Below are positions 2,657 to 18,516 of a DNA stretch of 64,000 nt, piece after piece. The stretch spans positions 1-64,000 of the forward strand of contig CANQBX010000016.1 in assembly GCA_947589095.1 (NCBI GenBank), in the 5' to 3' direction. This stretch comes from an uncultured Lachnospiraceae bacterium (GTDB taxonomy: Bacteria; Bacillota; Clostridia; Lachnospirales; Lachnospiraceae). Every line of letters begins with the position of its first letter. Within the stretch, counting starts at the first letter, position 1. The notes under the pieces were generated by a model. It worked only from the letters and a program-made list of their open reading frames with translations. It had not been told where the DNA came from and did no database searches. The position numbers and the translations under genes were made by a program.

Positions 2657-2730
2657 AATCATGAAATGGGGCTGTTTTAGAGAGGTATTTTGAAGAATCA
2701 GGCTCCGACAATATGCAGGAGGGATTCCAT

Positions 2731-3822
2731 ATGATTAAAAAAACATTGATTCTTGCGGATCAGGATGAGGTGTATCTGGCAAATCTTTCCAACTACTTTC
2801 TGGAGAAGGCGCCGCAGCTGGAATTAGTTACGTTTACCCGAGGCGATAAACTGAAACAGTATTTGGAATCAGAAAACAACATTGATATTTTAGCTGTTGA
2901 TGAAGGCATGTTGTCATCCTTGATTCCTCTCCCTTCACTTAATTGTGCAAGAATTGTCCTGTCAGCTTCTATGACACCGGTAGATGATTTTACACTTGTG
3001 AAAAAATATCAGAAAACAGAAACACTGCTGAATGATCTTTTGCTGAAATATGCGGAAACCACCGGAGAGATCGAGGCTATCCGAGGAAAGAACGATACGA
3101 AAATAGCAGCATTCTATAGCCCTGCCGGCGGAACCGGTAAAACAACACTGTCGCTGGCTATGGCGGCGGTGGCTGCAGGGCAGGGGAAAAAGGTATTATA
3201 TCTGAATATGGAAGAAATAGACTCTACATTTGATGTGTTTCCCGCGTCAGCAGGCAGTCTTTCAGATATTTATTTGGCGATAAAGACGAAGGGGATGAAT
3301 GTGGGTATCAAATTGTCTTCAAGTGTTGGAATAGCAACGCCCGGAGGCTTTTGCTATATATCCGGTGTGGAGAGCGTCGCAGAGCATGAGGAGATCGAGG
3401 AGAACGAGTTTGAAAAGCTGATTACTGCAATTCGGGCTCTGGCAGATTATGATTTAGTAATTTTGGATCTGTCCAGTGCGTTTACTGCAAAAAACAGGAA
3501 GCTGCTTTTAAACGCTGATGTTATATATGTTCCCGTTTTGGCTGATGAAACGTCTATTGCCAAGATGAAACGGCTTTTAAGAGAATCGGATTACCATGAG
3601 GTTTATAATCCGCTGTTTGCGCGGATGAAGCTGCTTGTCAACCGATCTATGACGAATAGTCCGTCTCCTGAGCTTTTGAACAGCGGACTTTTCAGTCAGT
3701 TGGAATGTGCTGCTGTAATTCCGAATCTGACCGTATTTGCTTCACGGAAAGCATGTCTGTCGAACGGGGAAATGTTCCGACAGATCATGGAACCGGTTCT
3801 TCAGATTGTTGATGCACTGTGA
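2731..3822 (+). CDS. tadZ: TadZ/CpaE-like pilus localisation ATPase
   Basis: This 363-residue protein combines an N-terminal receiver-like domain (residues 1-120, starting IKKTLILADQDEVY) with a MinD/ParA-type ATPase domain. The deviant Walker A motif SPAGGTGKTT is at residue 130. In Tad systems TadZ/CpaE sits at the pole or membrane and positions the assembly machine. It is the first gene of the operon and its stop codon overlaps a possible GTG for tadA. The ATG at 2731 is preferred over one at 2713 because CAGGAGGG lies just upstream of it. The receiver-like domain cannot be checked for a phosphorylatable Asp without alignment. Confidence 0.88.
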   Translation: MIKKTLILADQDEVYLANLSNYFLEKAPQLELVTFTRGDKLKQYLESENNIDILAVDEGMLSSLIPLPSLNCARIVLSASMTPVDDFTLVKKYQKTETLLNDLLLKYAETTGEIEAIRGKNDTKIAAFYSPAGGTGKTTLSLAMAAVAAGQGKKVLYLNMEEIDSTFDVFPASAGSLSDIYLAIKTKGMNVGIKLSSSVGIATPGGFCYISGVESVAEHEEIEENEFEKLITAIRALADYDLVILDLSSAFTAKNRKLLLNADVIYVPVLADETSIAKMKRLLRESDYHEVYNPLFARMKLLVNRSMTNSPSPELLNSGLFSQLECAAVIPNLTVFASRKACLSNGEMFRQIMEPVLQIVDAL

Positions 3823-3836
3823 CGAGGGGTAATCGT

Positions 3837-5072
3837 ATGGTTGAGAATATGTCGGAATATATAAGAAGGGTCCGTGAAATGGTCGCTGGGCGGCTTGATC
3901 TTACTCACAATGTGGATGATGAGGAAATCCGCCAGGTCATTTCTGAGATCGTAATGGAAGAATCAAGACGCCAGTATTTGTCCCTAACAGAGAAGAAAGA
4001 ACTCATGGAGGGTGTCTTTAATTCTATGCGCGGTCTTGATGTGCTTCAGCCGCTGGTAGATGATCCGAGTATAACCGAGATTATGATCAATGGTCCTCAC
4101 AATGTGTTTGTTGAACAGGATGGGCGATTATATAAGAAAAATGTCAGTTTCGGAAGCAATGAGAAGCTGGAAAATGTAATTCTGAATATCGTGTCCAAGG
4201 TGAATCGAACGGTTAATGAGGCGAGTCCAATCGTGGATGCGCGTCTGCAGGACGGCTCGCGTGTGAATGTAGTATTGCCGCCGATCGCTCTGGATGGACC
4301 AACCATGACCATTCGAAAATTCCCGGAGGATCCGATGACGGTAGAGAAACTGATTGCCTATGGATCCATTACTCCGGAAGTGGCGGAGCTTTTGCAAAGA
4401 ATGGTAAAGGCGAAGTACAATATTTTTATCAGCGGGGGCACCGGCTCCGGTAAGACTACATTTTTAAACGCGCTCTCTAATTTTATACCTAAAGATGAAC
4501 GTGTGATCACAATTGAAGACTCTGCTGAACTGCAGATCAGGGGAGTGGCGAATCTGGTGCGGCTGGAAACGCGCAATGCGAATTCAGAAGGAAAAGGAGA
4601 GGTGACGATCCGCGACCTGATCCGTTCATCGCTGCGTATGAGACCGGAGAGGATTGTAGTCGGCGAGGTTCGCGGCGCAGAAGCTTTGGATATGCTCCAG
4701 GCGATGAACACGGGGCATGACGGTTCCCTTTCGACGGGGCATTCCAATTCGACGAGGGATATGCTGAGCCGTTTGGAAACGATGGTAATATCCGGGAACA
4801 GTATCCCGATCGAGGCGATCCGTCAGCAGATTGCATCGGCAATCGACATTATTATCCAGTTGTCCCGTCTTCGCGATAAATCCCGCAGAACCGTGGAGAT
4901 CGCCGAAGTCACGGGATATGAGAACGGCGCCGTAGTGCTTAATACTCTCTATAAGTTCATCGAAACTGGGGAAACACCGGAAGGCAGAGTAATCGGCGAA
5001 CTGACCAGAACCTCTAATGCCATGGTACATACAGAGAAGTTTCGAAATGCGGGATTATCGGATATAGTATAG
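3837..5072 (+). CDS. tadA: TadA/CpaF-type secretion ATPase
   Basis: This 411-residue protein is the hexameric motor ATPase that powers Tad pilus assembly. It shows the CpaF N-terminal domain with PLVDDPSITEIMING, the Walker A motif GGTGSGKTT near residue 200, the Asp box ITIEDSAELQ, and the Walker B and His box region ERIVVGEVRG to MNTGHDGSLSTGHSNS. The length is normal. The ATG at 3837 follows GAGGGG by eight bases; a GTG at 3819 overlaps the tadZ stop and is the alternative. It lies between tadZ and the two TadB/C platform proteins. Confidence 0.95.
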   Translation: MVENMSEYIRRVREMVAGRLDLTHNVDDEEIRQVISEIVMEESRRQYLSLTEKKELMEGVFNSMRGLDVLQPLVDDPSITEIMINGPHNVFVEQDGRLYKKNVSFGSNEKLENVILNIVSKVNRTVNEASPIVDARLQDGSRVNVVLPPIALDGPTMTIRKFPEDPMTVEKLIAYGSITPEVAELLQRMVKAKYNIFISGGTGSGKTTFLNALSNFIPKDERVITIEDSAELQIRGVANLVRLETRNANSEGKGEVTIRDLIRSSLRMRPERIVVGEVRGAEALDMLQAMNTGHDGSLSTGHSNSTRDMLSRLETMVISGNSIPIEAIRQQIASAIDIIIQLSRLRDKSRRTVEIAEVTGYENGAVVLNTLYKFIETGETPEGRVIGELTRTSNAMVHTEKFRNAGLSDIV

Positions 5073-5100
5073 AAACTGACAGATATGCGGGAGGTACGAT

Positions 5101-5895
5101 ATGTTTGGTAAGAAGAAAGATGCCGTGGAGATGGTGGAGCGGGATGATGGCCTTATTGATTATGATGTTTATGTGATGTCAAAGAGGGAGAAGCTTTTAA
5201 ACATTCTATTTGCTGCGGTCGTTTTATTTGCGGTTGGCTATATTTTTTATCATAATCTGATTTTGTCGGCACTTCTGATGTTACTTGCCGTGAAGTGGCC
5301 GCCTATGCGAACGAAGCAGATTATTGAGAAGAGAAAAACTCAGCTGACATTGCAGTTTAAGGAACTTTTGTATGCTCTGTCATCTGCCCTTTCAGTTGGA
5401 AAATCAGTAGAAACAGGGCTTAAGGATTCCCTTCAGGATTTGAGGGTCATCTATCCAGATCCGGAAACTTATATTTTGGTAGAGCTTGAATATATTCTAA
5501 GGGGAATTGGAGTAAATAACACGATTGAAGATATGTTTCTCCAATTTGCAGAAAGGGCTCATTTGGAAGATATCGAGAATTTCGTGGATATTTTCGTGAC
5601 CTGTAAGCGGACGGGAGGAGATCTGATCGAGGTTATGCGTTCGACCTCCAGTACGATCGGTGAGAAAATAGAAGTGAAGCAGGAGATCAATACGATGATC
5701 TCCGGTAAAAAATATGAGTTTAATCTTATGATGATCATTCCGATTATTATGGTATTGTTTTTGACAGTAACATCGGGAGATTATATGGCGCCGGTATTTC
5801 AGACAATCGAAGGGAACCTGGCAATGACGGCGGCCATTGCGATATTTGGCGTTTCTTATCTGCTCGGTTCCAAAATTATGCGGATCAATATCTAA
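5101..5895 (+). CDS. tadB: TadB-like inner-membrane platform protein
   Basis: This 264-residue protein has a type II secretion F domain (about residues 75-220, LQFKELLYALSSALSVGKSVE). Predicted membrane spans are near residues 35-65 and at the C-terminus (NLMMIIPIIMVLFLTVTSG and the last 25 residues). TadB and TadC form the platform on which the TadA motor acts. The start follows GGGAGG, 29 bases after tadA, and tadC follows 13 bases after its stop. Confidence 0.88.
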   Translation: MFGKKKDAVEMVERDDGLIDYDVYVMSKREKLLNILFAAVVLFAVGYIFYHNLILSALLMLLAVKWPPMRTKQIIEKRKTQLTLQFKELLYALSSALSVGKSVETGLKDSLQDLRVIYPDPETYILVELEYILRGIGVNNTIEDMFLQFAERAHLEDIENFVDIFVTCKRTGGDLIEVMRSTSSTIGEKIEVKQEINTMISGKKYEFNLMMIIPIIMVLFLTVTSGDYMAPVFQTIEGNLAMTAAIAIFGVSYLLGSKIMRINI

Positions 5896-5908
5896 GCGGG
5901 AGGATATT

Positions 5909-6832
5909 ATGGTTACCATGATTGTTTCTATAGCGGTTTGCGCTATGTGTGTGCTGCTGTTTTTGGCCTGTTATCTGAAATCCAGAGGGCGGTATGACGA
6001 ATATATGGAATATGTGGATAAGGAAGAATATGGACTGAAGGATTTTATTCCCCTCGGTTTAGAGATGAGCGAATTCGGCTTTATGCAGAGAATGCTTCCA
6101 ATGTCATTAAAAACGGCTTTAGCCCAGCACAGGAATCAGGTTTACCAGAAGATTCTGGAGATTCGCGGACCAAGGGATGTGGAATTCTATGATTACATTC
6201 ACAGGGGATATCGGCTGGCAGCAGCTATTCTGTCCGGCGCCTTTGCTTCTTTGGTAGGGATGATCATGGTTCTGCAGGGAAGTTCAGATGGCCTGATATT
6301 AAGCGCGGCTGCGATTGCCGCTCTGGTATTAGTTCCTTTTCTGGTGGATGCCAGTCTGAACGGCGACATATCGAAACGAAGGCTGGCTATTCAAATGGAG
6401 TTTCCGGAATTTGTTAATAAACTGACGCTCCTTGTAAATGCCGGCATGACTATATCGAAAGCCTGGGAGAAAATTATCAATGAGAACAAAAAGGAACATA
6501 TCCTCTATGATGAAATGCGGTACGCCCTGGCGGAGATCAAGGCCGGTAAACCGGAAGCTGTGGCGTATGAGGAGTTTGCCAGAAGATGTCGGGTAAAGGA
6601 AGTAACGAAGTTTGTTTCCGTCGTTGTCATGAACCTGAAGAGAGGCGGAACAGAGGTAGTTCCAGTACTGCGCCAGCAGGGGAATGAGTGCTGGGAGATG
6701 CGCAAGAACGCGGCCAGGCAGATGGGAGAGGAAGCAGGTTCCAAAATATTGGTTCCTATGATGCTTATGTTCCTGGGCATTGTGCTGGTTGTGGCCACTC
6801 CGGCCGTAATCAGTATGACTCAGGGGATGTAA
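5909..6832 (+). CDS. tadC: TadC-like inner-membrane platform protein
   Basis: This 307-residue protein is the second platform component, with an N-terminal span (MIVSIAVCAMCVLLFLA), paired central hydrophobic segments, an F domain (FPEFVNKLTLLVNAGMTIS) and a C-terminal span. The ATG at 5909 follows GGGAGGA by five bases; the frame is open further upstream but overlaps tadB. It precedes the pilin gene by 97 bases. Confidence 0.87.
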   Translation: MVTMIVSIAVCAMCVLLFLACYLKSRGRYDEYMEYVDKEEYGLKDFIPLGLEMSEFGFMQRMLPMSLKTALAQHRNQVYQKILEIRGPRDVEFYDYIHRGYRLAAAILSGAFASLVGMIMVLQGSSDGLILSAAAIAALVLVPFLVDASLNGDISKRRLAIQMEFPEFVNKLTLLVNAGMTISKAWEKIINENKKEHILYDEMRYALAEIKAGKPEAVAYEEFARRCRVKEVTKFVSVVVMNLKRGGTEVVPVLRQQGNECWEMRKNAARQMGEEAGSKILVPMMLMFLGIVLVVATPAVISMTQGM

Positions 6833-6929
6833 ACGCAGCGGAGGTAAAATAAAACCACCTGAAACGGTGTTTTTATATGTTTTTCTTATGTGAGCAGTAG
6901 ATGAAAATTCTGGGAAAGGAGGAAAGGCC

Positions 6930-7130
6930 ATGGAACTGTTAAAGCAATTTTACGAGGAAGAAGACGGAATGGGAGTGATTGAGATAGTCATGATCATTGC
7001 GGCCCTGATGTGTGTGGCGCTGATATTCCGGAACACGATTATAGACTTTGTACAGGATCTTTTACAAAGAGTGCTCAATCAGGGAAATTCTTCTACCGGC
7101 GGCAACGTGAGCGGAGCTTCGCAATTCTAG
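6930..7130 (+). CDS. flp: Flp-type pilin (type IVb)
   Basis: This 66-residue protein is the likely major pilin. It has a short leader ending in EEEDG followed by MGVIEIVMIIAALMCVALIF. Cleavage after Gly13 would leave a mature protein with Glu at position 5, the type IV pilin hallmark, then a hydrophobic helix of about 20 residues and a short Ser/Gly-rich tail. A strong ribosome binding site (GGAAAGGAGG) precedes the ATG. It is the only Flp-sized gene in the operon. A stable hairpin follows at 7155, which could boost or protect the pilin message. Confidence 0.9.
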   Translation: MELLKQFYEEEDGMGVIEIVMIIAALMCVALIFRNTIIDFVQDLLQRVLNQGNSSTGGNVSGASQF

Positions 7131-7154
7131 TAGAAGATGCAGATGTAGTTTTAT

Positions 7155-7190
7155 TTCCGCCGGGAATCCTTTTCCTGGTTCCCGGCGGAA
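7155..7190 (+). promoter_or_regulatory. 12-bp stem hairpin after the pilin gene
   Basis: TTCCGCCGGGAA (7155-7166) and its exact complement (7179-7190) enclose a 12-base loop. No T-run follows, so it is more likely an mRNA processing or stabilising structure, or a partial attenuator, between the pilin and the low-copy downstream genes. Confidence 0.65.
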
Positions 7191-7212
7191 AGCTGTGGGA
7201 GAATGTAAGATT

Positions 7213-7878
7213 ATGAAAAAGATAGCAGAAATAGTTCAAAGGATAAAACGGAAAAGACAGGACGGTTATCTGACTGTTGAAGCCAGTATAGTTTTTTCGG
7301 TGCTGTTCTTTTCCCTGATTCTGATTCTGTTTATAGGAATGGTTTTGTATCAGGAGGTAAATCTGCAGAGTCTGGCGGTGCGCGCTTCCGAAAGAGGCGG
7401 TGTGATATACAGCGCAAGGGTGTCGGATATGACAACCGGAATTAAGACGCTGGAGGATTTTAAAAACCGGGATCCATACAGAAATGTTCCATTCCTGAAT
7501 ACATTCAATGATGACGCTTATGAAAATGTGATCGGAGAATATGTGAACAATTATCTAAAAGAGAATAATGTCCTGTCAGGAGAACGGGGAAGCTATAATG
7601 TGGATATCATAAACCGGCTGTTCTCTAAACGGGTGAAAGTGAATATAAGCAACAGCTACCGCATGCCGGTGGATTCTATAAGCGAGATGTTTGGCCATAA
7701 GGGGCCTTTCGATGTGGACACAACCGCGGTATCAGCAGTAGTCGACTCACCTGATTTTGTGCGTAATGTGGATCTGGTTCTTGATGTGGCAAAACAGACG
7801 GGGGTATTTGAAACGGTTGAGAATGGATATAACAAAATTATGGACGCGCTTGAAAAAGTACAGAATCTGTTGAAATGA
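7213..7878 (+). CDS. TadE-like pseudopilin
   Basis: This 221-residue protein has a basic leader, the processing motif DG-YLTVEA with Glu at +5, and one long hydrophobic helix (SIVFSVLFFSLILILFIGMVL). The rest is predicted to be extracytoplasmic and has no recognised domain. This is the TadE pseudopilin layout; minor pilins of this kind are processed by the Tad prepilin peptidase. The ATG at 7213 follows GGGAGA. It is the first gene after the pilin hairpin, and its stop lies nine bases before the next gene. Confidence 0.8.
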   Translation: MKKIAEIVQRIKRKRQDGYLTVEASIVFSVLFFSLILILFIGMVLYQEVNLQSLAVRASERGGVIYSARVSDMTTGIKTLEDFKNRDPYRNVPFLNTFNDDAYENVIGEYVNNYLKENNVLSGERGSYNVDIINRLFSKRVKVNISNSYRMPVDSISEMFGHKGPFDVDTTAVSAVVDSPDFVRNVDLVLDVAKQTGVFETVENGYNKIMDALEKVQNLLK

Positions 7879-7887
7879 GGCAGCAAA

Positions 7888-10443
7888 ATGAAATTCTTCA
7901 GGAAAAAGAGCCGCAAGGCGGCGATATCCATTTTTTTGACAATTATACTGATTCCCAGTATGCTTCTCTCGGCTGTGCTGATCGATGGCAGCCGCTATTC
8001 AAGCGCGAAGGCAATCGTACAGGAAGCGTCTGATCTGGCGGCTGTCAGCGCGCTGGCGGATTATAATCTAAAGCTGAAGAATGAGTTTGGTCTGTTTGCG
8101 ATTCAGAATCCGGACAAGCTGGACGAGGTATATAAAAAAAGCCTGAATGCGACGCTTATGGCGTACGGCCTTGATGATCAGGAATATTCGGAAATGATCT
8201 GGCAGTTCATGAAGAGCGCCGTGACAGGCACAGAGTCTTATGCGGACGCATCCTTCCTGAATCTGTATGATTTTCAGGTGGACTCTAATGCTTCAAGCGC
8301 GAAAGCCATGTATCCGCTTGCAGAGAAAGAAGTTCTTAAAACGCAGATGGTGGAGTATGCCAAATTCAGAGGAATCTATGTTGCTCTGGATCGTATGGAC
8401 ATTCTGAACAAGCTGACAGAGGTTCAGTCCCAGGCCAAAGAGAATGAGAATACTTCGGATATAATGAATGAGAAGATGGGGGTTGATGAAGAAAATGGGG
8501 CTGCGGATCAGGCGGTCAGCAGTCTGAAAGAAGCGATTGAGAAGCTGATGGCGGATATTGGCGAATATGAGGAGACCCTGAAAGGTTATTCCAAGGGGCT
8601 GCAGGCTTATATGGAAGTCATCCGGCATGATAATATCTATCCGCAGGAAGAAGAAATAGATGAGTATACCAGAACGCAGGCAAATGGTTTCGATGGATAT
8701 TCTGTCAGTTTGGCTCCGGCAGCCAGAAGTTTAAAGGGAAGCGCACATAATGTCCGCTCTCTTGCGCAGACAGCTCTTGAAGAAGCCCAAAATGCTGTGA
8801 ATCGGCTGGATGGTTTCAAAAGCAAGTATGAAGGCGGCGGCGAGGCGGCAAAGGAAATGGCGGAAGACGCTACAGCCAGTAAGGAAGCTTATGAGGATTA
8901 TGTGACAGAACTGACAAAGATCACAGAGGATAAATGTCTGGCCTTCTACGCTGACAGTATCAATCCGGACGATCTTTTTGCGATAACTTCGCAGATCTTG
9001 AATGCGGTTTCTGAGGATGCGAAGCGTGTAAAAGCGGAGAAGGAGGCCGCGGAGAAGGCGGCTGCAGAAGCGAAGAAGGCTGAAGGAGGAGAGTCCGAAC
9101 CGAAAGCTGATCCGGAAGCCGAACCGGGGACAGAGACTGAAATTTATACGAATGATCATTATGATTTCTATAACCTGGAAATGACCGAGAAAAGTGATAA
9201 TCTTTTCAAAATGCTTGACGGAGTTTACAAAATAGCGATCGCATCCTGTATGAGCAAGGGGACGGACTGTACGCTGGATATATTAAAAAACTCCCCGTGG
9301 AAGAATATTCAGACTACATATGCTTCCAACTCTGAGCCGGGAAACGCAGGTTCGGATCTGAACAGCTTTGCGGAAAATCAGTCTGAACAGGAAATTAAAA
9401 CAGAGGTGGATAATGAGAAAGGCGCGCCTCGAGGAGAGATCAATGAAGATAACTATAACAACCGTCCGTCAACATCTTATACACAGGAACCAGGAAGCAA
9501 TGTGGGGTTAGGGTTTTATAATAAGAGCGGAAATCTGACAGCATCTAAAAATATAATGAACCAGGGTAAGCACAGTATGATTCTTGACATAGCGGAAACG
9601 ATGAGAGACGATGTGCTGAGCCTGTCTTATATGTTCGGAACCTTCAAGACCCGCATGACCGGGGTAGAGAATTTTTCGTCTAAAATGCCGGAATCCGAGA
9701 AGAACAGCTTCTATATGCCTGAATGGCGTTACGCTCATGAAAATGGCGAGCTGGATATGCGTTTCCTGCCCAAAAAGGATCGTAAAACGGTATTAAGGAG
9801 CGAAATCGAATATCTGATTTATGGAAATCGCACGGACGCAGCAAATGAGGGCGCCGTATATGCGACGATTTACGCGGAGCGGATGGCAAATAATATGATT
9901 GCACTTTATCTGAACGCTGCCGTTAAGGGTTCCTGTCACGCCGCGGGAGCGGTGGCATCGACCCTTACCCTGGGAATTGTGCCGGAACCGGTATTTTTCT
10001 GGATCATACTGACGGCATGGGCAGTGGCAGAGACGCTGATTGAGATGGATTATCTGATAAACAAAGGGTATAAAATTCCATTGTTTAAGACTGGAAAAAA
10101 TGTTCTGCTGACGATATCTCCGAATGGCAGCACGGAAGGCCTCATCAGTCATTATGGACAGACAGGTTTTTTCGTGACGTATGAGGATTATCTGCTGATT
10201 CTTCTGCTGCTGAAGGGGGACGATAAGCGAATAATGCGTTCAGCCGACCTGATCGAATTTAATATGAAGGCGAATGGAGAGCCAACGTTTTCGATGGCGA
10301 AGGCCTATACATATATGCAGGCGGATACAGTTGTTTCGCTGCGTTATTTGTTTAATCAGGTAATGCCGTTTCAGGCGGTTTATGAGGAAAGCGGAAATAC
10401 GGGACGGCTTCAGTTTACCAGTTCCATATATATGGGATATTAA
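7888..10443 (+). CDS. TadG-like / DUF5702-type pilus-locus protein
   Basis: This 851-residue protein has one N-terminal membrane span (ISIFLTIILIPSMLLSAVLI) followed by DGSRYSSAKAIVQEASDLAAVSALADYN, the signature start of TadG-like proteins. A long predicted extracytoplasmic region follows, with coiled-coil stretches (residues 200-320) and a Lys/Glu/Ala-rich segment (about 373-415). A second hydrophobic segment near residues 685-715 may be another span. In Clostridia proteins of this size in Tad loci are often grouped as DUF5702. Its role is unknown; a cell-surface tether or pilus-associated protein is an inference. Confidence 0.7.
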   Translation: MKFFRKKSRKAAISIFLTIILIPSMLLSAVLIDGSRYSSAKAIVQEASDLAAVSALADYNLKLKNEFGLFAIQNPDKLDEVYKKSLNATLMAYGLDDQEYSEMIWQFMKSAVTGTESYADASFLNLYDFQVDSNASSAKAMYPLAEKEVLKTQMVEYAKFRGIYVALDRMDILNKLTEVQSQAKENENTSDIMNEKMGVDEENGAADQAVSSLKEAIEKLMADIGEYEETLKGYSKGLQAYMEVIRHDNIYPQEEEIDEYTRTQANGFDGYSVSLAPAARSLKGSAHNVRSLAQTALEEAQNAVNRLDGFKSKYEGGGEAAKEMAEDATASKEAYEDYVTELTKITEDKCLAFYADSINPDDLFAITSQILNAVSEDAKRVKAEKEAAEKAAAEAKKAEGGESEPKADPEAEPGTETEIYTNDHYDFYNLEMTEKSDNLFKMLDGVYKIAIASCMSKGTDCTLDILKNSPWKNIQTTYASNSEPGNAGSDLNSFAENQSEQEIKTEVDNEKGAPRGEINEDNYNNRPSTSYTQEPGSNVGLGFYNKSGNLTASKNIMNQGKHSMILDIAETMRDDVLSLSYMFGTFKTRMTGVENFSSKMPESEKNSFYMPEWRYAHENGELDMRFLPKKDRKTVLRSEIEYLIYGNRTDAANEGAVYATIYAERMANNMIALYLNAAVKGSCHAAGAVASTLTLGIVPEPVFFWIILTAWAVAETLIEMDYLINKGYKIPLFKTGKNVLLTISPNGSTEGLISHYGQTGFFVTYEDYLLILLLLKGDDKRIMRSADLIEFNMKANGEPTFSMAKAYTYMQADTVVSLRYLFNQVMPFQAVYEESGNTGRLQFTSSIYMGY

Positions 10444-10454
10444 GAGGAGCGGAT

Positions 10455-11582
10455 ATGAGGAAGCAAAGAGGAAAGAAGGGTTCTCTGACACTGGAGGCGG
10501 CGCTCACCTATCCGTTATTTCTGATGGTGATCGTAACGATCCTGTATATAATGCGTATCGTCTATACCTATGGCCTGATTCAGCATGCCGCGGCGCAGAC
10601 GGCCAGGGAATTGTCTATGTATACCTATATCTATCAGGTTTCAGGGTTGTCAGAGATGAATACGACGCTGCAGAGTTCCGCGGCCGGACGTACGCAGAAG
10701 TTTAACTCGGATGTAGATAATGTTGTAGATCTGTATAATAAGTTTATGGATGGAAATATGCAGGGTGTCCAGTCCTGGTCCTATACGGGGGAAACAGATC
10801 CGATCGAAATATTGAAAAACGTGGGGGCAGTCCTGGTAGGCGGAGCCACCAGGGAAGCGAATAGTCAGTTATTTCAGTTAGTCGTCCGGCCGATGATGGC
10901 AGGTTATATTGGCGCGGATTCCCAGAATAATTCAGCGGACCAGCGCCTGCAGCTTTTGCGGGTGAAGGGCGGACTGAGCGGTCTTAACCTGGACGCTTCG
11001 AGTTTCTGCGATGACGGCGTAACGATCGATCTGGTAGTCTGTTATACGATCGAGCCGATTTTTCCTATTAACATCATGCCCAGTTTGAATCTGATGAATC
11101 GCGCGTATGTCCGCGGGATGAACGGAGAAACGGTATTTCAGCGTCACAGCGGAGGAGGCAAAGCGGAAAAAGAAGACAGCGTCTGGGATAACCGAAATAC
11201 AACCGAGCGTGGAAAAATCATACAATCAGAGGATGGCACCAGAAACCTGCCGGACAATTTCCCGGTTTATTCGGCTTATGACAGTGAGAGCGGCAAGGCC
11301 ACGGCTGCCGTATCGATCGATCTTAGGATGAAAAGTTACCAGAGCAAGAGCGGGATTAAGGGAAGAATCAGCAGTGAATGTGAGAATATCGTGAATTATA
11401 AGACAAGTATCTGCGATGGTGTGACGGTTAAGGCAGAGGATATCAGAGAAAATGTGCTGATCGTTTATATTCCCTCGTCTACAGAGGACCGATCAGTGGA
11501 CCGGAGCGTTTATGACGAAGCTGTGGCGGAAGTACAGGCACGTTATCCGAAGATCAAGATCATTACAAAGGAAATTGATTAG
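10455..11582 (+). CDS. second TadE-like pseudopilin
   Basis: This 375-residue protein starts MRKQRGKKGSLTLEAALTYP, giving a Gly-Ser cleavage site with Glu at +5, followed by the helix LFLMVIVTILYIMRIVYTYG. The C-terminal 300 residues are predicted to be extracytoplasmic. It is longer than typical TadE proteins and could be a tip or surface-exposed minor pilin. It starts 12 bases after the preceding gene and ends nine bases before the prepilin peptidase gene. Confidence 0.75.
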   Translation: MRKQRGKKGSLTLEAALTYPLFLMVIVTILYIMRIVYTYGLIQHAAAQTARELSMYTYIYQVSGLSEMNTTLQSSAAGRTQKFNSDVDNVVDLYNKFMDGNMQGVQSWSYTGETDPIEILKNVGAVLVGGATREANSQLFQLVVRPMMAGYIGADSQNNSADQRLQLLRVKGGLSGLNLDASSFCDDGVTIDLVVCYTIEPIFPINIMPSLNLMNRAYVRGMNGETVFQRHSGGGKAEKEDSVWDNRNTTERGKIIQSEDGTRNLPDNFPVYSAYDSESGKATAAVSIDLRMKSYQSKSGIKGRISSECENIVNYKTSICDGVTVKAEDIRENVLIVYIPSSTEDRSVDRSVYDEAVAEVQARYPKIKIITKEID

Positions 11583-11590
11583 GTGAAAGT

Positions 11591-12220
11591 ATGGTTGCGG
11601 AGATGATGGCTGTTTGGGTGTTCGTGCCGTTGCTGGCCGGTATGCGAATCGTGTATGCAGCAGACGTACTGAAGGGAATGGAAAAGCCGTTTTACAGGAT
11701 ATGGAGCCGGGGGAGTCTGTATCTGGTTTCAATCGTATGTGTAATTATCAATTTCGTTGTATGGCTCTGCTCAGGTCACAGCGCGTATATGCTTCGGCTG
11801 TGGGATATGATAGCGTCTTATTTGCTTCTGGCAATCGTTGACTGGAAGAAAAAAATTGTTCCTGATACGGTGCTGGTGTGTTTTTTTGCAGCGCAGATGC
11901 TTTTGGGAGCAGTGACTATGGATCCGGAAAGGTTGTTCTCCATGCTTTTTACCGGAGGCGTGCTTTTCTTCTTTCTCATAGCGTTTGCATGGCTGTCCAA
12001 GGGAAGGTTGGGTATGGGAGACGCAGAGCTTTTAGGTGTGACTGCTATGGCAGCGGGATGGGCATATGTAGTTCAGATCGTGACGATTGCTCTGATATTT
12101 TCCTTTTTCTACGGACTCTGGCTGCTTTTCTTCCGAAGAATGACCATGAAGACAGAGATTCCGTTCGTTCCTTTTTTGGCGGCGGCCATGGCGGTTCATA
12201 CAGTCTATATTGTCCTTTGA
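11591..12220 (+). CDS. prepilin peptidase, A24 family (first copy)
   Basis: This 209-residue polytopic membrane protein has about six to seven hydrophobic segments. It carries the two aspartate motifs of the A24 aspartic peptidases: DWKKKIVPD in one cytoplasmic loop and GMGDAELLG in the second. It would cleave the leaders of the pilin and TadE-like proteins. A second A24-type gene occurs at 14827 in the same operon. Having two suggests that they split the substrates, or that one acts on the larger pseudopilins. Confidence 0.8.
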   Translation: MVAEMMAVWVFVPLLAGMRIVYAADVLKGMEKPFYRIWSRGSLYLVSIVCVIINFVVWLCSGHSAYMLRLWDMIASYLLLAIVDWKKKIVPDTVLVCFFAAQMLLGAVTMDPERLFSMLFTGGVLFFFLIAFAWLSKGRLGMGDAELLGVTAMAAGWAYVVQIVTIALIFSFFYGLWLLFFRRMTMKTEIPFVPFLAAAMAVHTVYIVL

Positions 12221-12256
12221 GGACTACATTATAGAAAAATACGATGGAGGTAAAGT

Positions 12257-14008
12257 ATGACAGACCAAGTGAAAACATCATACGAAAGTATCGGCACATC
12301 CAGTTACCTGACAGTAATACTGACGCCGGAAGCGGGGCTTGTAAATTATCAGATGGAAATGCTTACGTCAAATGAGATCAGCCATATCCTGCCGGTTTCG
12401 AAACGTCTTCTGAATGGGGAGATATTGGTTTATTACAATATTACGTCCAGAGTTCCTTTAAGCCAGGTGCTGGGGAGAAGAAAGCTAAAACGGGAAGAAT
12501 TCATACGGGTTGTAAAAGCGGCAGTATCGGCAGCGCGGGATGCCGGGGAATATCAGCTTCCGGCGGAAGGATTCGTGATGGAGACCGATTATATCTATGT
12601 TAATCCATCCAACTGCGAACCGTATTTTGTATATCTGCCGGTGGTTGGAAACACTGGAAAAGGAATCAAAAATCTGATTCTTGAACTGATTATGCAGGGA
12701 AAAATTGAGATGTCCGGGGATAACTTCGTGCAGGCACTTTTGGAAACAGTCAACAGTGAACCGTTGTCCTTGGATGCGTTGGAAGCGTGTGTGGACAGAT
12801 ACGCTGAAAATAAAACACGTCACTTGGGTTCACAGCCCATTTCGACTCCGGGGCCGGCATCTGTTTCAATCGAGAAGCAATATGCGGGAGAGATTTCAAA
12901 ACCAAATTTGCCGCCTCAACCGGCTTTTATTCCCGCTTCAAAAGCAGAAATGCCGGAACCTGATCTGAAGCCCCAGAATTCGAAGCCGGCGCCTCCTGAT
13001 GAAGAAGAGTCGGCCGCTGCGGCAGAAAATCGACGGAAACCGCCGGTTCGGCGGGGAGAGAAAGAGACACGGAAGGCGCTACATGGCCTTAGCGGGAAGG
13101 AAAAGGCTGCTTCGGAGGAAACATCGGATGCCGAAGAAAACGGGGATGGATTTGATCCGGAAAAGGCGAAGAAGAAGTTTCTTCTTCCGCAGGCAGTGGT
13201 GATGGTGGCTATTGCCGCAGCTGTCTCCTTTGGGTTCTTTACAGATGAGACAGGAGCGATTGTTCTGAATAATATTCTGGCTGTTGCAATTGTTGTGGCG
13301 GTAGCAGAGATCATTCTTTATCGGGAAGCATATGTGAATGGCAGGCAGCCGAAGAAAGGAAAAGGGAATAAGAAGGCGGCGAAACCATCTGCTTCAGCTA
13401 AGAAAGATGTGACGGTTCCCCAAAAGGTTCCGGAACAGAAGCCTGTGCCGACGGGGGCGAGACGGGCTCCGGCACCGCAGCGTGAGACGAAGCCTGTTTC
13501 GCGGAATGTATCAGAAAAAGTTCTGGAAAATGCCCAACCGCAGCCAGCTCCAGTGTCGCCGCAGCCAGTTCAGATGCCGCAGCCGCGCCCGATTCCAATG
13601 CCGCAGGAACAGTATCAGCAGCCGCGGGCGAATAATCCATATCCTGATAATAATGATACAGAGCTGGGGGCTGAAACAGAGCTTTATGATGAGAATGCGG
13701 GAATGACTGCGTATCTTGAATATTATGAAAATGGGACTGTTACCAGAGTCCCGCTTGATAAGCCCAGCGTTTTGATTGGCCGTCTTCGGGGGCAGGTAGA
13801 TTTTGTTATATCCAATCCAAGGGTTGGCAAGATTCATGCGGAGTTTATCTCACAAAATGGACAGTTTTTTGTAAAAGATATCAATTCGAAGAACGGAACT
13901 TATATCAATAGCGGGGAACGTATCAGCAGCAACATACCGTATCCGCTCCATGATAATGATAGGATCAGATTGGCAGACAGTGAGTTTACTCTCAGGTGTT
14001 CTTCATAA
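12257..14008 (+). CDS. DUF6382 and FHA domain protein
   Basis: This 583-residue protein has an N-terminal DUF6382-like domain (residues 1-180), a Pro/Glu-rich linker, two membrane spans (about 308-327 and 335-354), a second Pro/Gln-rich linker, and a C-terminal FHA domain (about 490-580; VLIGRLRG, NPRVGKIHAEF, DINSKNGTYINSG). FHA domains bind phosphothreonine. With both ends on the same side of the membrane it is well placed to recruit the phosphorylated kinase encoded 1.5 kb downstream to the Tad machine. The PP2C phosphatase gene follows 12 bases after its stop. The DUF6382 assignment is from memory of the family start. Confidence 0.85.
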   Translation: MTDQVKTSYESIGTSSYLTVILTPEAGLVNYQMEMLTSNEISHILPVSKRLLNGEILVYYNITSRVPLSQVLGRRKLKREEFIRVVKAAVSAARDAGEYQLPAEGFVMETDYIYVNPSNCEPYFVYLPVVGNTGKGIKNLILELIMQGKIEMSGDNFVQALLETVNSEPLSLDALEACVDRYAENKTRHLGSQPISTPGPASVSIEKQYAGEISKPNLPPQPAFIPASKAEMPEPDLKPQNSKPAPPDEEESAAAAENRRKPPVRRGEKETRKALHGLSGKEKAASEETSDAEENGDGFDPEKAKKKFLLPQAVVMVAIAAAVSFGFFTDETGAIVLNNILAVAIVVAVAEIILYREAYVNGRQPKKGKGNKKAAKPSASAKKDVTVPQKVPEQKPVPTGARRAPAPQRETKPVSRNVSEKVLENAQPQPAPVSPQPVQMPQPRPIPMPQEQYQQPRANNPYPDNNDTELGAETELYDENAGMTAYLEYYENGTVTRVPLDKPSVLIGRLRGQVDFVISNPRVGKIHAEFISQNGQFFVKDINSKNGTYINSGERISSNIPYPLHDNDRIRLADSEFTLRCSS

Positions 14009-14020
14009 AAAGGAGCGCGT

Positions 14021-14791
14021 ATGTGGAGCTATGTGTATGGAGCGTCTACAGACAGGGGAGATGTAAGAAAAGAGAATCAGGACAGCTGCCTGTGCGTGTC
14101 CGGTAGTATCGGGGGTACTCCTGCCGCACTGTTTGTACTGGCCGACGGTATGGGGGGACTCTCCTTTGGCGCCCAGGTTAGTCAGTGCATTACTTCTCGA
14201 TTTGCTGAATGGTGGCAGGAAGATTTTTCGCAAATGGTACAGGCCGGGAGAGACAGCCGGGAAGATCTGGATGAGCTTTTAGGTCAGGAAATATGGGATA
14301 TCAATCAAGAGATACGCCGGTTTAATAATCAGATGCAGTGCAGGGCAGGTTCAACGGTGGTCGTTCTGTTTATGTACGGCAGCGAATATTTCGTTAAGAG
14401 TCTGGGAGACAGTCGAATCTATCTTGCGAGAGGAACGGAATTCCGTCAGTTGACAGAAGACCAATCGCTGGTGGCAAAAATGGTTCGCGAGAAGAAAATA
14501 TCGGAAGAAGAAGCGCTTCGCTCAGAGAGAAAGAATGTTCTGACTATGTGCCTTGGAATGTTTGAAATACCGGAGACTCATTCTGCTGCCGGCCGGCTGG
14601 CGTTAGGAGATTGTTTCCTTCTTTGCAGCGATGGACTGTATAACTGCGTAAGCAGGGAACGAATAGCGCAGGTTCTGTGGGACCGGACAATGGATTGTCA
14701 GGAAAAAGTGGCCTGCCTAAGACAGAGCATTCCGCCGGGAACAGCGTCTGATAATGTGACCGTGGTAATAACTGAAGTGGGAGAAATCTGA
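14021..14791 (+). CDS. PP2C-family Ser/Thr phosphatase
   Basis: This 256-residue protein is a complete PPM/PP2C metallophosphatase. It shows the metal-binding motifs DRGDVRKENQDS, LADGMGG, SLGDSRIYLARG, LCSDGLYN and the final DNVTVVI. It has no membrane span, so it acts in the cytoplasm and would reverse the kinase encoded in the same operon. It sits between the FHA gene and the second prepilin peptidase, so pilus and phosphorylation genes are interleaved rather than merely adjacent. Confidence 0.93.
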   Translation: MWSYVYGASTDRGDVRKENQDSCLCVSGSIGGTPAALFVLADGMGGLSFGAQVSQCITSRFAEWWQEDFSQMVQAGRDSREDLDELLGQEIWDINQEIRRFNNQMQCRAGSTVVVLFMYGSEYFVKSLGDSRIYLARGTEFRQLTEDQSLVAKMVREKKISEEEALRSERKNVLTMCLGMFEIPETHSAAGRLALGDCFLLCSDGLYNCVSRERIAQVLWDRTMDCQEKVACLRQSIPPGTASDNVTVVITEVGEI

Positions 14792-14826
14792 ATGGAGAAG
14801 TCCATCTATGGAAGGAGAAACCGGCA

Positions 14827-15360
14827 ATGTGGGAAATGGTTAGAAATTGGCTGCCTCCGGTTGCGGCGGTGATCATTGCCTGTATGGGAGGATATACGGA
14901 TATTACAAGCCAGAAGATTCCTAATGAGATTACGCTTCACGCTATGTCGGCTGGTTTACTGATCAATCTCCTGCTCGGAGGCCTGGGGGGAGTGGCATCA
15001 TGGGCCGGCGGATTGCTTCTGGGCTTTGCTTTTTTCCCGCTTTATTTAGTCGGAGCATTAAAAGCCGGGGATGTAAAGCTTTATATGGCTATAGGAGCAG
15101 TTGGGGGGTGGCATTTCGGACTGTATGTCATGGTGCTTTCAGTGCTTTTCGGAGGGGTAACGGCTTTCCTCTTAATGCTTGTCAGAAAAGATGGACGAAG
15201 GGCGTTGCGGTCCCTATGGAATTATCTGGCCAATATGGTTTTGACCAGAACGTTTTCCATGTACCAGCCGCAGGAGAAGTCGGCGTATTTCAGTTATGGC
15301 TGCTGCATCAGCGCAGGCGCTGTGGCGGCTCTGATATGGATGATCATACAGAAAATGTGA
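14827..15360 (+). CDS. tadV: TadV/CpaA-like prepilin peptidase (second copy)
   Basis: This 177-residue membrane protein has the short A24 architecture used by TadV/CpaA. Motifs are GYTDITSQKIPNEIT (first Asp, with the IPN turn) and ALKAGDVKLYMAIG (second Asp). It would process the Flp pilin. Its motifs are closer to the canonical TadV ones than those of the first copy at 11591. It overlaps nothing, and the next gene begins three bases after its stop. Confidence 0.88.
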   Translation: MWEMVRNWLPPVAAVIIACMGGYTDITSQKIPNEITLHAMSAGLLINLLLGGLGGVASWAGGLLLGFAFFPLYLVGALKAGDVKLYMAIGAVGGWHFGLYVMVLSVLFGGVTAFLLMLVRKDGRRALRSLWNYLANMVLTRTFSMYQPQEKSAYFSYGCCISAGAVAALIWMIIQKM

Positions 15361-15363
15361 GGG

Positions 15364-15549
15364 ATGATTATGGAATGGCTGACAGATGAACTATTGTGTT
15401 ATGGAGGCGCGGTTTTAGCGGGCGTCACGATGGCTGCAGCGGTTCTGTATCTTCTGATTTCGAAGATTCAGTTCCTGCGGCTGGAGTCGCGGCTTGATCA
15501 TGAATACGGGACAAGCCTGCGGAAGAGAAGGAAGAAAAACCATGGCTAA
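15364..15549 (+). CDS. small single-span membrane protein
   Basis: This 61-residue protein has one hydrophobic segment (residues 11-33, LCYGGAVLAGVTMAAAVLYLLI) and a very basic tail ending RKRRKKNHG. It is translationally coupled to its neighbours: its start lies three bases after tadV and its last eight bases overlap the kinase start. No family is recognised. Its place in the operon suggests an accessory subunit of the Tad or kinase complex. An alternative start is the ATG at 15370. Confidence 0.65.
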   Translation: MIMEWLTDELLCYGGAVLAGVTMAAAVLYLLISKIQFLRLESRLDHEYGTSLRKRRKKNHG

Positions 15550-18502
15550 GATTGTTGCATCGACTTACGAAATGCTGGAGAAGCTGGGTTCCGGCGGAGG
15601 CGGAAATGTCTATTTGGCCGAGCATCTGCGTCTTAACAAAAAAGTAGTTCTGAAAGCTGATAAACGGAAGATAACGACTCGCGAAGAATTCCTGCGAAGG
15701 GAAGTCGATGTTTTAAAGGAGCTAAAACATCCGTATATTCCGACTGTATACGACTATTTTGTCGAAGAAGGAACCGTATATACGGTTATGGATTATATTG
15801 ATGGAGAAAGTCTGGACAGGCCGCTGCGGCGGGGAGAAAGGTTTTCTCAGCCGCAGGTGATCAGCTGGGCTGTTCAGCTGCTGGAGGCCCTCGAATATCT
15901 GCACAGTCCGACGCACGGCGATCCTCCAAGAGGTTATGTCCACAGCGATATCAAGCCGGCTAATCTGATGCGCCGGCCGAATAACGATATCTGCTTAATT
16001 GATTTTAATATTACTCTCGCTCTAGGTGAGGAGAATATAATAGGCTGCAGTGCCGGCTATGCGTCGCCGGAGCATTACGGACTCGACTTTTCCACAGACG
16101 GAGAAACAGAATCCAGAACGGAGCCCGTGATCGGAGCAGTTGACGAAACCGTTACGCTTATAAAACAGGGAGCGGGCGATGAGGCTGCAGAAACTGTTTT
16201 GGCAGATAATGACGCCACAGTTACCATGTCGAGAGTACTGGATCCTCAGGCAGCTGTCGTTTATGCGTCGAAAATGTCCGGAACAAGTAGCAAATCTTCC
16301 TTTTCGGGGAAAAAGATCGTAGTTCCTGATGTCCGTTCTGATATCTACAGTACCGGCGCTACGCTTTATCATCTTTTAAGCGGCCGGCGGCCGGCCAGAA
16401 ACGCAAGGGAAGTAGAACCGCTTTCTGATAAGGAGTTTAGCCTTCCGGTTGTGAAGATCATCATGAAGGCTATGAATCCCAATCCGGATCTGCGTTATCA
16501 GACGGCTTCGGAGATGCTCTACGATTTCACGCATCTGTGGGAGAACGATCCGCGCATGAAGCGGCTGAAGCGCCGGAACCGTGTTGCGGGGGCGGCGTTT
16601 GCTTTGTTGTTTGCCGGCGGAGCGGCATCATCCTTCATCGGCCTCAAGCGTATGCAGACCACCGAGAACTGGTTAAAGCTCGCTGAATATTCCCGCAATG
16701 CTCTTGAAACCGGTGACTCGGCGCTTGCGATCGACTACGCCCTGCAGGCGCTGCCGGAACGGACGGGCAGTATTCTGGAGCCGCCCTATACCGCGGCGGC
16801 GCAGAACGCGCTGACGGATGCGCTGGCGGTTTATGATCTCTACGACGGCTATAAGACGCAGGGAGCGGTGAATCTGCCGTCGGCTCCGCTTACGATGGAA
16901 ATATCGCCGGACGGGAAAACGGCGGTGTGTATCTACGCCTACGAGGCGGCGGTGATCGATACGGAGACGGCGCAGGTGCTTAAGACTTTGCTCGCGGCGG
17001 AATCTGCGCTTGCCGAGGTGCATTATCTGGACGCAGATACATTTCTGCTAGCGGGAGCGGATGGGATCACGGCTTATGATATAGCGGGCGATAAAATTCT
17101 CTGGACCGGAGGGGCGGCGACGTCCATCGCCGTATCCGGCGACGGGAAGAGAGCGGCGGCCGTGTACCGCGACGAACAGACGGCGGCGCTTTATGATGCC
17201 GCAGATGGAAAACTGGTTAAGACGGTCGATTTCGGCGGGCGAAGCCAGAGCGTTACAGTAAATGATATTTTCGCCAATCCGCGGGATAATCTTCTTGCGC
17301 TGAATGAAGATGGTTCGCTTCTGGGCGTCAGCTTCGCGGACGGCTCCCTGCAGGTATTTGATTTGGAGAATCCGGATGACGATATCATTCTTTTTGATCC
17401 GGGATCCGGCTATGCGCATTTTGAAGGGGGCTTCTATCAGGAGTATTTTGCTTTCTCTGCTACGCGGCCGGGGGATTCGATTTTCAGCGTGATCGATACG
17501 GCAAATATGATGGAGACCGGCGGTTTTGAATCGGATCAGGCGTTTGGCGTGGAGACCGACGAGACCGGTATTTATGTGCAGACAGAAAATCTGTTGGTGA
17601 AGATCGATCCGGTGACGGGCGAGCAGGAGCCTCTGGTGACGACGCCGGACGATATCCTGCGGTTTGCGAGGGGCGGAGAGCATACGCTGATCGCGTCTGA
17701 GGATAAGTTTATGTTCTACGACAGTTATGCGAATCAGATGTCTACTCACACGAAGGAGTACGGCGGCGATTTCGTCCAGCTGGCGGAAGGTGTGGCGTTA
17801 GTCGGAAGCATGGATTCTCCATTGGTGCGGGTAATGAAATACATTGGATATCCGGAAGCGGAGGTATTTTCCTATGATTCATCGTATGTGCACGACGAAG
17901 CCCGGATGAGCGCGGACGGGAAGACGGTGATGCTGTTCGCCTACGATCAGTTTCGGCTGTACGGGATGGATGGCGACTTGATAGCAGAAGTAGATATTCC
18001 GGATGCGGAGCAGGTCTATGACCAGCAGTACCGGCGGGATGCGGACGGCTCGCGGCTGGAAGTGATCTATAATGACGGACTTATCCGCTCCTACAGCGCC
18101 ACGGACGGCGCGCTTCTGGCAGAGCAGAGCGGCGACGCGCCGGATCCGGATATGTATGAGGAATTTTTTACGGACAGTCTTCGGATCACCTCGCCGCTTC
18201 ACGGGACCCCGGCGGCCTATGACAGGGAGAGCGGACGGCTGGTGCGGGAGCTGGAAAAGGACGCGTATCTGACGTACGTGACGCAGACCGGGGATTATAT
18301 CGTGACGCAGTATACGACGGCGGACGGATATTTTTACGGGCAGCTGCTGAACGGGCAGTGCGAGGTACTGGCGGAGCTTCCGTATCTTTGCGATGTGTAT
18401 GACGGAAAGCTGTATTTTGACTATCCAACCGGTCATGTGCGGGAATCCCGCATTTATGATATCAGCGAGCTGATCGAGATGGCTCGTGAAAAGAAAGATT
18501 AA
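15542..18502 (+). CDS. transmembrane Ser/Thr kinase with beta-propeller sensor domain
   Basis: This 986-residue protein has a cytoplasmic kinase domain (residues 1-330), one membrane span (about 345-367) and an extracytoplasmic WD40/PQQ-like repeat region (about 380-986). Kinase motifs are the Gly loop GSGGGGNVY, beta-3 Lys38, HSDIKPANLM (residues 134-143) and SPE in GYASPEHYG. The DFG motif is DFN (residues 154-156). An insert of about 80 residues after SPE contains DETVTL, AETVLAD and DATVTM, possible phosphothreonine sites for the FHA partner. The ATG at 15542 follows an AGAAGGAAG site; an upstream ATG at 15494 lies inside the preceding gene. Base composition shifts sharply at the kinase-propeller border. 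Confidence 0.9.
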   Translation: MAKIVASTYEMLEKLGSGGGGNVYLAEHLRLNKKVVLKADKRKITTREEFLRREVDVLKELKHPYIPTVYDYFVEEGTVYTVMDYIDGESLDRPLRRGERFSQPQVISWAVQLLEALEYLHSPTHGDPPRGYVHSDIKPANLMRRPNNDICLIDFNITLALGEENIIGCSAGYASPEHYGLDFSTDGETESRTEPVIGAVDETVTLIKQGAGDEAAETVLADNDATVTMSRVLDPQAAVVYASKMSGTSSKSSFSGKKIVVPDVRSDIYSTGATLYHLLSGRRPARNAREVEPLSDKEFSLPVVKIIMKAMNPNPDLRYQTASEMLYDFTHLWENDPRMKRLKRRNRVAGAAFALLFAGGAASSFIGLKRMQTTENWLKLAEYSRNALETGDSALAIDYALQALPERTGSILEPPYTAAAQNALTDALAVYDLYDGYKTQGAVNLPSAPLTMEISPDGKTAVCIYAYEAAVIDTETAQVLKTLLAAESALAEVHYLDADTFLLAGADGITAYDIAGDKILWTGGAATSIAVSGDGKRAAAVYRDEQTAALYDAADGKLVKTVDFGGRSQSVTVNDIFANPRDNLLALNEDGSLLGVSFADGSLQVFDLENPDDDIILFDPGSGYAHFEGGFYQEYFAFSATRPGDSIFSVIDTANMMETGGFESDQAFGVETDETGIYVQTENLLVKIDPVTGEQEPLVTTPDDILRFARGGEHTLIASEDKFMFYDSYANQMSTHTKEYGGDFVQLAEGVALVGSMDSPLVRVMKYIGYPEAEVFSYDSSYVHDEARMSADGKTVMLFAYDQFRLYGMDGDLIAEVDIPDAEQVYDQQYRRDADGSRLEVIYNDGLIRSYSATDGALLAEQSGDAPDPDMYEEFFTDSLRITSPLHGTPAAYDRESGRLVRELEKDAYLTYVTQTGDYIVTQYTTADGYFYGQLLNGQCEVLAELPYLCDVYDGKLYFDYPTGHVRESRIYDISELIEMAREKKD

Positions 18503-18516
18503 AGGAGACGGTGAGA

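Follow-up and report, generated by a model that had tools for sequence, protein, structure and literature searches.

A Tad pilus operon with kinase, phosphatase and FHA genes

We analyzed a 64,000-nucleotide stretch of DNA (the window) from an uncultured Lachnospiraceae bacterium, contig C16 (CANQBX010000016.1) of a 4.1-Mb draft genome. It holds an operon for a Tad (type IVc) pilus in which genes for a Ser/Thr kinase, a PP2C phosphatase and a DUF6382-FHA protein, here called the adaptor, lie among the pilus genes. As the first-pass annotation of this DNA had described, the Tad motor and platform, a pilin, pseudopilins, two prepilin peptidases, the kinase, the PP2C and the FHA protein are all in place, encoded on the forward strand in one close-packed series with short gaps and several overlaps.

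The series begins with a TadZ-like ATPase (2713..3822), which exceeded the cut-off of AAA_31 and reached 26.5 against a cut-off of 27.4 with the receiver model TadZ-like_ARD; the start assigned to it previously, 2731, is an in-frame ATG inside this gene. There follow the TadA/CpaF motor ATPase (3819..5072; T2SSE, E 8e-61, and TadA trees), the platform proteins TadB (5101..5895; T2SSF above cut-off) and TadC (about 5903..6832, start approximate; T2SSF, E 2e-10) and the Flp pilin (6930..7130; Flp1_like, E 5e-16). A first TadE-like pseudopilin (7195 or 7213..7878) scored 17.4 bits with TadE, below the cut-off of 22.9, and occupies the same place in relatives. Next come a TadG-like protein with DUF5702 (7888..10443; DUF5702, E 6.5e-34; Tad/PF13400, 21.7 against a cut-off of 22.3), a second TadE-like pseudopilin with a C-terminal PF21111-like domain (10455..11582; TadE and PF21111 both above cut-off) and the first prepilin peptidase, TadV 1 (11591..12220; Peptidase_A24, E 1.5e-10). 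The Tad core of TadA, TadB/TadC, Flp pilin and TadV thus exceeded the Pfam cut-off in each case, TadZ and the TadE/TadG-type pseudopilins mark the system as Tad, and the gene order is kept in relatives.

The adaptor gene (12257..14008) matched Pfam DUF6382 and FHA, both above cut-off. Its DUF6382 domain (12257..12808), a predicted minimal pseudokinase, is followed by a threonine-motif region that is a candidate phosphorylation switch by alignment and family motif counts (residues 467-478, 13655..13690, DTELGAETELYD) and by the FHA domain (residues 505-583, 13769..14005; E 3.4e-16). Downstream are the PPM-type phosphatase (14021..14791; PP2C and PP2C_2 above cut-off; Stp1/IreP family model, 173 bits, below its cut-off of 230), a second TadV (14827..15360; Peptidase_A24, E 1e-12), a 61-residue protein with one hydrophobic helix by eye (15364..15549), for which profile matches were found in loci L160, L036, L041, L060 and L192, and the kinase (about 15536..18502; Pkinase, E 1.2e-32), with one predicted membrane helix and a large, possibly beta-propeller tail.

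A gene for a secreted 1175-residue protein with Ig and choline-binding repeats (18511..22038; He_PIG, Choline_bind) begins 8 bases past the kinase end, and from this spacing the operon probably extends into it. Between 1700 and 21600, terminator-like sites occurred at chance level (13 found, 16.0 expected). The strongest such site on the forward strand in our scans, and the sole long hairpin with a T run there, lies at 23395..23422 (12-bp stem). A second large secreted protein with Ig-like/choline-binding-type repeats is encoded at 23593-27228, and either protein may be a surface partner of the pilus or of the kinase. A sortase gene (864-1715) lies upstream of the Tad operon.

In the closest named relative found, also an uncultured Lachnospiraceae bacterium, the adaptor is 88% identical, and the order TadG, peptidase, adaptor, PP2C, second peptidase, small protein, kinase and choline-binding-repeat protein is as in the window. 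On contig C39 the genome under study has a second Tad locus (L111), which includes a DUF6382-FHA gene; within the 20 kb examined there, neither a kinase gene nor a PP2C gene was found.

Linkage to one Tad lineage

To place the operon among its relatives, we searched genomes of the family and phylum for its components. TadA relatives were found in 194 of 200 family genomes (E 1e-60) and in 147 of 249 phylum genomes (E 1e-40), and DUF6382 in 23 of the 249. By their coordinates, 16 of the 22 phylum DUF6382 matches above cut-off lie within 20 kb of a TadA match; among the other six, one (G156) is separated from its TadA by a contig end. One relative also has two weaker DUF6382 copies about 15-17 kb from a Tad adaptor (G222:C3:57396-59695).

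We annotated 141 TadA neighborhoods, the window and 140 others with some 2.4 kb of upstream sequence before TadA, using profiles made from the window's own proteins. Because family loci were chosen down a list ranked by similarity to the window's TadA, with long contigs preferred and two loci taken from some genomes, the resulting fractions are not population frequencies. DUF6382 was present in 109 of the 141 neighborhoods (91/121 and 18/20), PP2C in 17, the kinase in 18 and kinase and PP2C together in 15. L039 is a 19th kinase locus: in an additional 4 kb, upstream of its TadZ, it has a propeller-type kinase together with a choline-binding-type protein.

Three lineages could be distinguished; their labels were assigned from gene order and hit-list position and later compared with TadA trees. 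Lineage I has the order peptidase-TadZ-TadA-TadB-TadC-Flp-TadG-TadE-peptidase-TadE-adaptor and lacks kinase and PP2C; lineage II, that of the window, has TadZ-TadA-TadB-TadC-Flp-TadE-TadG-TadE-peptidase-adaptor-PP2C-kinase, with variants; lineage III has TadZ-TadA-TadB-TadC and lacks DUF6382. A first TadA tree, with 121 rows, placed every one of the 16 kinase loci identified by then within 30 rows (Shimodaira-Hasegawa approximate likelihood-ratio test, SH-aLRT, 86), with none in clades of 67 (SH-aLRT 98) and 20 (100). With 141 rows, kinase loci were confined to a set of 34 (SH-aLRT 81) and absent from the 83 rows past a starred branch (97), the 20 lineage III rows and four further rows; support for the branch holding all of lineage II is the 86 or 81 of the respective tree, neither of which is a starred value. 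Kinase loci therefore make up 19 of 34 rows in the window's TadA set and 0 of 107 elsewhere on the tree.

The window's family contributes 21 loci to this set of 34, three of which stop at a contig end (L035, where PP2C was seen, L179 and L188). Fifteen of the remaining 18 carry the kinase, 14 of them with PP2C. Among the 13 rows from other families, the kinase is present in four (L118-L121), with PP2C detected only in L118, and the contig of L116 ends after PP2C; the other rows, some of them short stretches, showed no kinase. L116, L118-L121 and L124 come from the six genomes with DUF6382 in another order, from which ten genomes were sampled. These results show that the linkage of kinase, PP2C and adaptor is real and conserved within one Tad lineage.

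The trio could in principle be a chance or mobile insertion without pilus function, as might be suggested by the absence of kinase and PP2C from most sampled Tad loci, by kinase and TadA trees that do not track each other closely, and by L039 and L177, in which parts lie upstream rather than downstream of TadA. Such an insertion is hard to reconcile with the confinement of kinase loci to one TadA set, with the reappearance of these partners across many family genera and also in a second order of the phylum, and with the embedding of the trio among pilus genes in the window and L160; we regard it as very improbable. The first-pass annotation had likewise held that the signaling genes were unlikely to be passengers, and the abundance of DUF6382 at Tad loci, the recurrence of kinase with PP2C in one lineage and the filling of the kinase place by different kinase lines all bear this out. 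It had also named rarity beside Tad genes as a finding that would count against it, and here the outcome was mixed: kinase and PP2C are in few of all sampled Tad loci, yet in most window-lineage loci of the family.

A type VII secretion system (T7SS) elsewhere in the genome was considered as the trio's partner and rejected: WXG100 had 0 matches in the genome, and the EssC model reached 102 bits against a cut-off of 778. Nine further window proteins were scanned, of which seven could be named (AddB-like, UvrD-type helicase/nuclease, YchF-like GTPase, Lgt, MraZ, MraW and a penicillin-binding protein).

Several loci depart from the common layout. L177 is rearranged, with the adaptor upstream of TadA and a leucine-rich-repeat (LRR) kinase and PP2C at the far end; L043 has several TadG-like pieces in series and no adaptor in the 20 kb examined; and L118, L123 and L125 have a second TadZ-TadA pair about 3-5 kb downstream of the first adaptor. 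Several lineage II loci, the window not among them, carry between peptidase and adaptor a gene of about 430-450 codons whose product has an N-terminal helix; in L041 (8234-9541, reverse strand) it bears TPR and WG repeats. At the presumed pilus tip, the PF21111 (CDI_toxin_EC869_like) domain that ends the second TadE-like protein (E 9.9e-8) lies in a C-terminal part that, among the open reading frames (ORFs) of 121 loci, matched only L035 besides itself, and five lineage I copies have a cysteine-rich tail in its place. Judging from these sequences, the tip domains of these pili seem to be exchanged.

A predicted pseudokinase adaptor and a kinase with a variable tail

Going beyond the first-pass annotation, we found that the other domain of the FHA protein looks like a pseudokinase. 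The predicted model of DUF6382 has a kinase fold, and its first Foldseek match was TraF-N. Catalytic motifs are lost: among 91 DUF6382 ORFs, an HRD-like motif was seen in 5, a DFG-like motif in 4 and both in 0. EssB/YukC was not among the best 50 matches listed in either fold search, which carries no weight against the likeness. The PF10140 sequence family had no match in the window's adaptor or in the genome, and in a PDB sequence search the adaptor profile found matches nearly only for its FHA half (best 60 of 78 matches). By hydropathy, the window's adaptor has two membrane helices and then the FHA domain, and 12 of 23 lineage II adaptors with FHA have no helix. The domain stands without an attached FHA in 21 of the 91 ORFs, two of which (L036, L102) have FHA on the adjoining ORF.

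The kinase itself is predicted to be active, as both an HxD loop (HSDIKPAN) and a DFG-type motif (IDFN) are present. Its membrane helix is predicted by hydropathy near residue 359 of the 988-residue form, followed by a tail of about 620 residues. Inserts of 52-118 residues lengthen the activation loop of L058 and of those propeller-type kinases that could be cut at this segment; the other eight kinases lack such long inserts. Over 14 kinases, 12 TxxL/TxxD-type motifs were seen in the activation segment against 2.1 expected (none in L036), a count that leaves out L040 and L048, which could not be cut.

The first-pass annotation had given this kinase a large propeller outside the membrane and proposed that it senses contact or a ligand and so starts pilus assembly. 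The helix was recovered, six relatives (L160, L036, L041, L059, L192 and L039) match the tail profile, and L036 and L041 exceed the cut-off of the ANAPC4_WD40 model. In the window, WD40/PQQ-type matches stayed below cut-off and the AlphaFold model of the tail was poor (mean predicted local distance difference test, pLDDT, 44.9), so that the window's tail is possibly, and by indirect support, a propeller. Sensing at the surface could also suit the choline-binding-repeat protein that adjoins the kinase in the window and in five of the six tail-profile relatives (L160, L036, L059, L192 and L039, not L041). The tails of other relatives argue the other way: they are of TPR type in L053, L055 and L058, LRR in L177, weakly solute-binding-like and under cut-off in L048, without a convincing Pfam domain in L037, L040 and L045, and soluble and ParA/TadZ-like, with no predicted membrane helix, in L118-L121 (the last a weak assignment, 1.3e-7 to 5.7e-6 in a 4-sequence search with no Pfam match). 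Because the tail differs among relatives, an outer propeller cannot be the essential part and was rejected as such; with the ligand itself conjectural, control by propeller sensing appears improbable to us.

In a kinase-domain tree, the propeller types form one group and the ParA-tailed types another, while L048 and L177 stand apart on long branches with one of the genome's own other kinases. The kinase domains at these Tad loci, as judged from this tree, are not one simple line of descent, and different lines fill the place. Kinase and adaptor were also compared for membrane helices in 15 loci by hydropathy. All 4 loci with a helix-free kinase have two helices in the adaptor, all 9 with a helix-free adaptor have one or more in the kinase, and in the window and L036 both proteins have helices. 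The four soluble kinases are close kin, so this complementarity reflects few events.

A proposed switch and its counterparts in other machines

Building on the observed genes and linkage, the predicted pseudokinase fold and the motif conserved in the family, we propose, with moderate confidence, that this Tad operon carries its own phosphorylation module that gates the pilus motor, probably turning it on and off through the joint action of the kinase, the phosphatase and the kinase-like adaptor. By analogy with YukC, the adaptor would dock on the TadA/TadB/TadC motor and platform, and its FHA domain could fold back onto the pseudokinase or threonine motif of the same protein. The kinase would phosphorylate threonines of the linker motif, and perhaps also some within its activation-loop insert, where the FHA domain could then dock. 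Phosphorylation would flip the adaptor between closed and open states, permitting or blocking pilus extension, PP2C would reset it, and the kinase tail would serve as an exchangeable input.

The candidate target is an acidic threonine motif before the FHA domain, often doubled and of the form ET[TV]xL in many adaptors. In the 24 lineage II linkers, the narrow pattern T[TV][VILTM]L was counted 19 times (14 linkers have it), against 0.29 expected after shuffling; for the 48 lineage I linkers the figures are 21 (20 linkers) against 0.34. The wider pattern T[TVE]x[LIM] gave 25 against 3.3 expected in lineage II and 32 against 6.7 in lineage I. The binding face of the FHA domain, which we take to consist of conserved Arg, Ser, His and Asn positions, argues both ways on phosphate binding. 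The window keeps Arg509, His and Asn and has Gly524 at the usual Ser, so that its set departs from the canonical phosphothreonine-binding one. The kinase loci retain Arg in 12 of 16 cases; lineage I adaptors have lost it in 44 of 48, and all 48 keep Ser. These states are mostly lineage-wide and so represent few evolutionary events.

Several observations weigh against a phosphorylation switch. The threonine patterns were picked after the alignment had been viewed, and the window's own linker, DTELGAETELYDE, is a variant (TELG, TELY) that matches neither. Since the motif is also present in kinase-less loci, at the frequencies given, it is not specific evidence for this kinase. Of the 16 kinase loci, 12, the window included, have Gly in place of the FHA Ser, and 4 lack the Arg. 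Foldseek TM-scores for DUF6382 were modest (0.41-0.66 among matches listed), and an initial hhalign comparison, in which three template ORFs had been chosen wrongly, reached only P 0.079. Three of the 18 family loci (L038, L043 and L044) had neither kinase nor PP2C in the stretch examined, whose upstream limit is about 2.4 kb from TadA, and at the kinase loci L039 and L119-L121 no PP2C was detected. Phosphorylation, motor docking, the direction of the switch and its signal are steps that we infer.

The Ser-to-Gly change in the FHA domain would suit an adaptor that is mainly structural, an EssB/YukC-like pseudokinase-FHA hub whose FHA domain works free of phosphate while kinase and PP2C have their targets elsewhere (the pilin, TadZ and the cell wall are examples) and are only co-regulated with the pilus. 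DUF6382 is present in most Tad loci without kinase or PP2C and lacks an attached FHA in 21 of 91 ORFs, and in type VII secretion the pseudokinase YukC contacts the FHA domain of the motor YukB and serves as a hub (PMC13037476). Set against this, Arg of the FHA face is kept in 12/16 kinase loci and in only 4/48 lineage I adaptors, the three genes remain together even in the rearranged locus L177, and kinase, PPM phosphatase and DUF6382-FHA also stay together in T7SS subtypes e and j (PMC11217815). We consider a mainly structural adaptor unlikely, if less so than propeller sensing, and continue to favor the phosphorylation switch.

The T7SS e and j sets are, in the literature searched, the closest published relatives of the trio. 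They comprise the kinase TsxD, the PPM phosphatase TsxF, the DUF6382-FHA protein TsxJ and the one-helix protein TsxK, and subtype f lacks the kinase (PMC11217815). As in the window, a DUF6382-FHA protein and PPM phosphatase accompany a membrane kinase of variable outer part and a small one-helix protein, and the adaptor has no or two membrane helices, as in Tad adaptors; they differ in serving an EssC/WXG100 secretion machine rather than a Tad pilus. According to the same survey, T7SSf has a TadZ-like protein, and T7SSg and T7SSh adjoin Tad genes, a link its authors left open (PMC11217815). EssB/YukC of T7SSb and TraF of pIP501 conjugation likewise place a minimal degenerate kinase fold on a component of a membrane machine (PMC13037476). 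The window's pseudokinase differs from these in being fused to FHA, in having no PF10140 match and in the two helices or none of Tad adaptors. A partial YukC-family match (E 2.9e-4, under cut-off) was seen in a same-family relative (G142:C12:245996-246265). The window's 61-residue protein can be likened to TsxK by its fitting size and place only.

GarA and OdhI are metabolic regulators not known to carry a pseudokinase. Kinases phosphorylate their N-terminal ETT motif, and their FHA domain docks on autophosphorylated kinase segments (PMC8546545). The ETT motif resembles the linker threonine motif beside FHA in the window's family, which differs in being an inner-linker, candidate phosphosite; the OdhI family model scored 29.9 bits on the window's adaptor against a cut-off of 200. 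The first-pass annotation had compared the trio with the type VI secretion system (T6SS), whose threonine phosphorylation pathway is PpkA-PppA-Fha. That pathway, mentioned in PMC11217815, PMC8460266 and PMC3224232, is an apt analogy in that kinase, PP2C and FHA are encoded with a cell-envelope machine, but the window's adaptor is not of the TagH family (TIGR03354, 33.1 bits against a cut-off of 120.25), and the T7SS e/j sets are closer (PMC11217815).

Among pili and related filaments, the Tad-like Kil system of Myxococcus has many FHA proteins, for which its authors propose a signaling cascade; there FHA is also on the motor ATPase KilF itself, and the words kinase and phosphatase are absent from the text of the paper (PMC8460266). 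In archaea, the FHA protein and phosphorylation of the ArnA/ArnB system are tied to archaellum expression (PMC4858521). Neither "kinase" nor "FHA" occurs in the text of a review of pili in one-membrane bacteria (PMC6916266) or a type IV filament survey (PMC6668835), and, by a word search, a bacterial pseudokinase review names EssB, not Tad or pilus (PMC12599244). Among the papers searched, DUF6382 appeared in the T7SS survey only, which was also the sole one joining "pseudokinase" and "Tad pilus" (PMC11217815); FHA domains and Tad pili are named together in four, one of them PMC11418510. In this literature, which included few subscription papers and no bioRxiv preprints, we found no report of the module in Tad pili. 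The control layout is already known from secretion machines, with type VII secretion as the close published parallel; what is new is its occurrence at a Tad pilus, together with our reading of DUF6382 as a pseudokinase, an input that varies from kinase to kinase, and the fusion of pseudokinase with FHA.

More tentatively, and as a wider idea that we would not yet lean on, Bacillota may control unrelated envelope machines, Tad pili and type VII secretion systems, with one exchangeable cassette of active kinase, PP2C and pseudokinase-FHA hub, and may employ a bare pseudokinase of related type in conjugation (TraF). The Tad adaptor would then fuse the two-protein pseudokinase:FHA contact of T7SSb into one phospho-switchable motor gate, and swapped kinase tails would change its input. 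A single kind of pseudokinase adaptor would in this way link type VII secretion, conjugation and Tad pili. Nearly every genome of the family has a Tad motor, and we found nothing on the regulation of such pili there in the literature searched. Our finding offers a testable regulator and a proposed fold for a domain of unknown function in most sampled Tad loci and, if the proposal is true, the kinase tails would be a list of the signals by which different bacteria run the same pilus.

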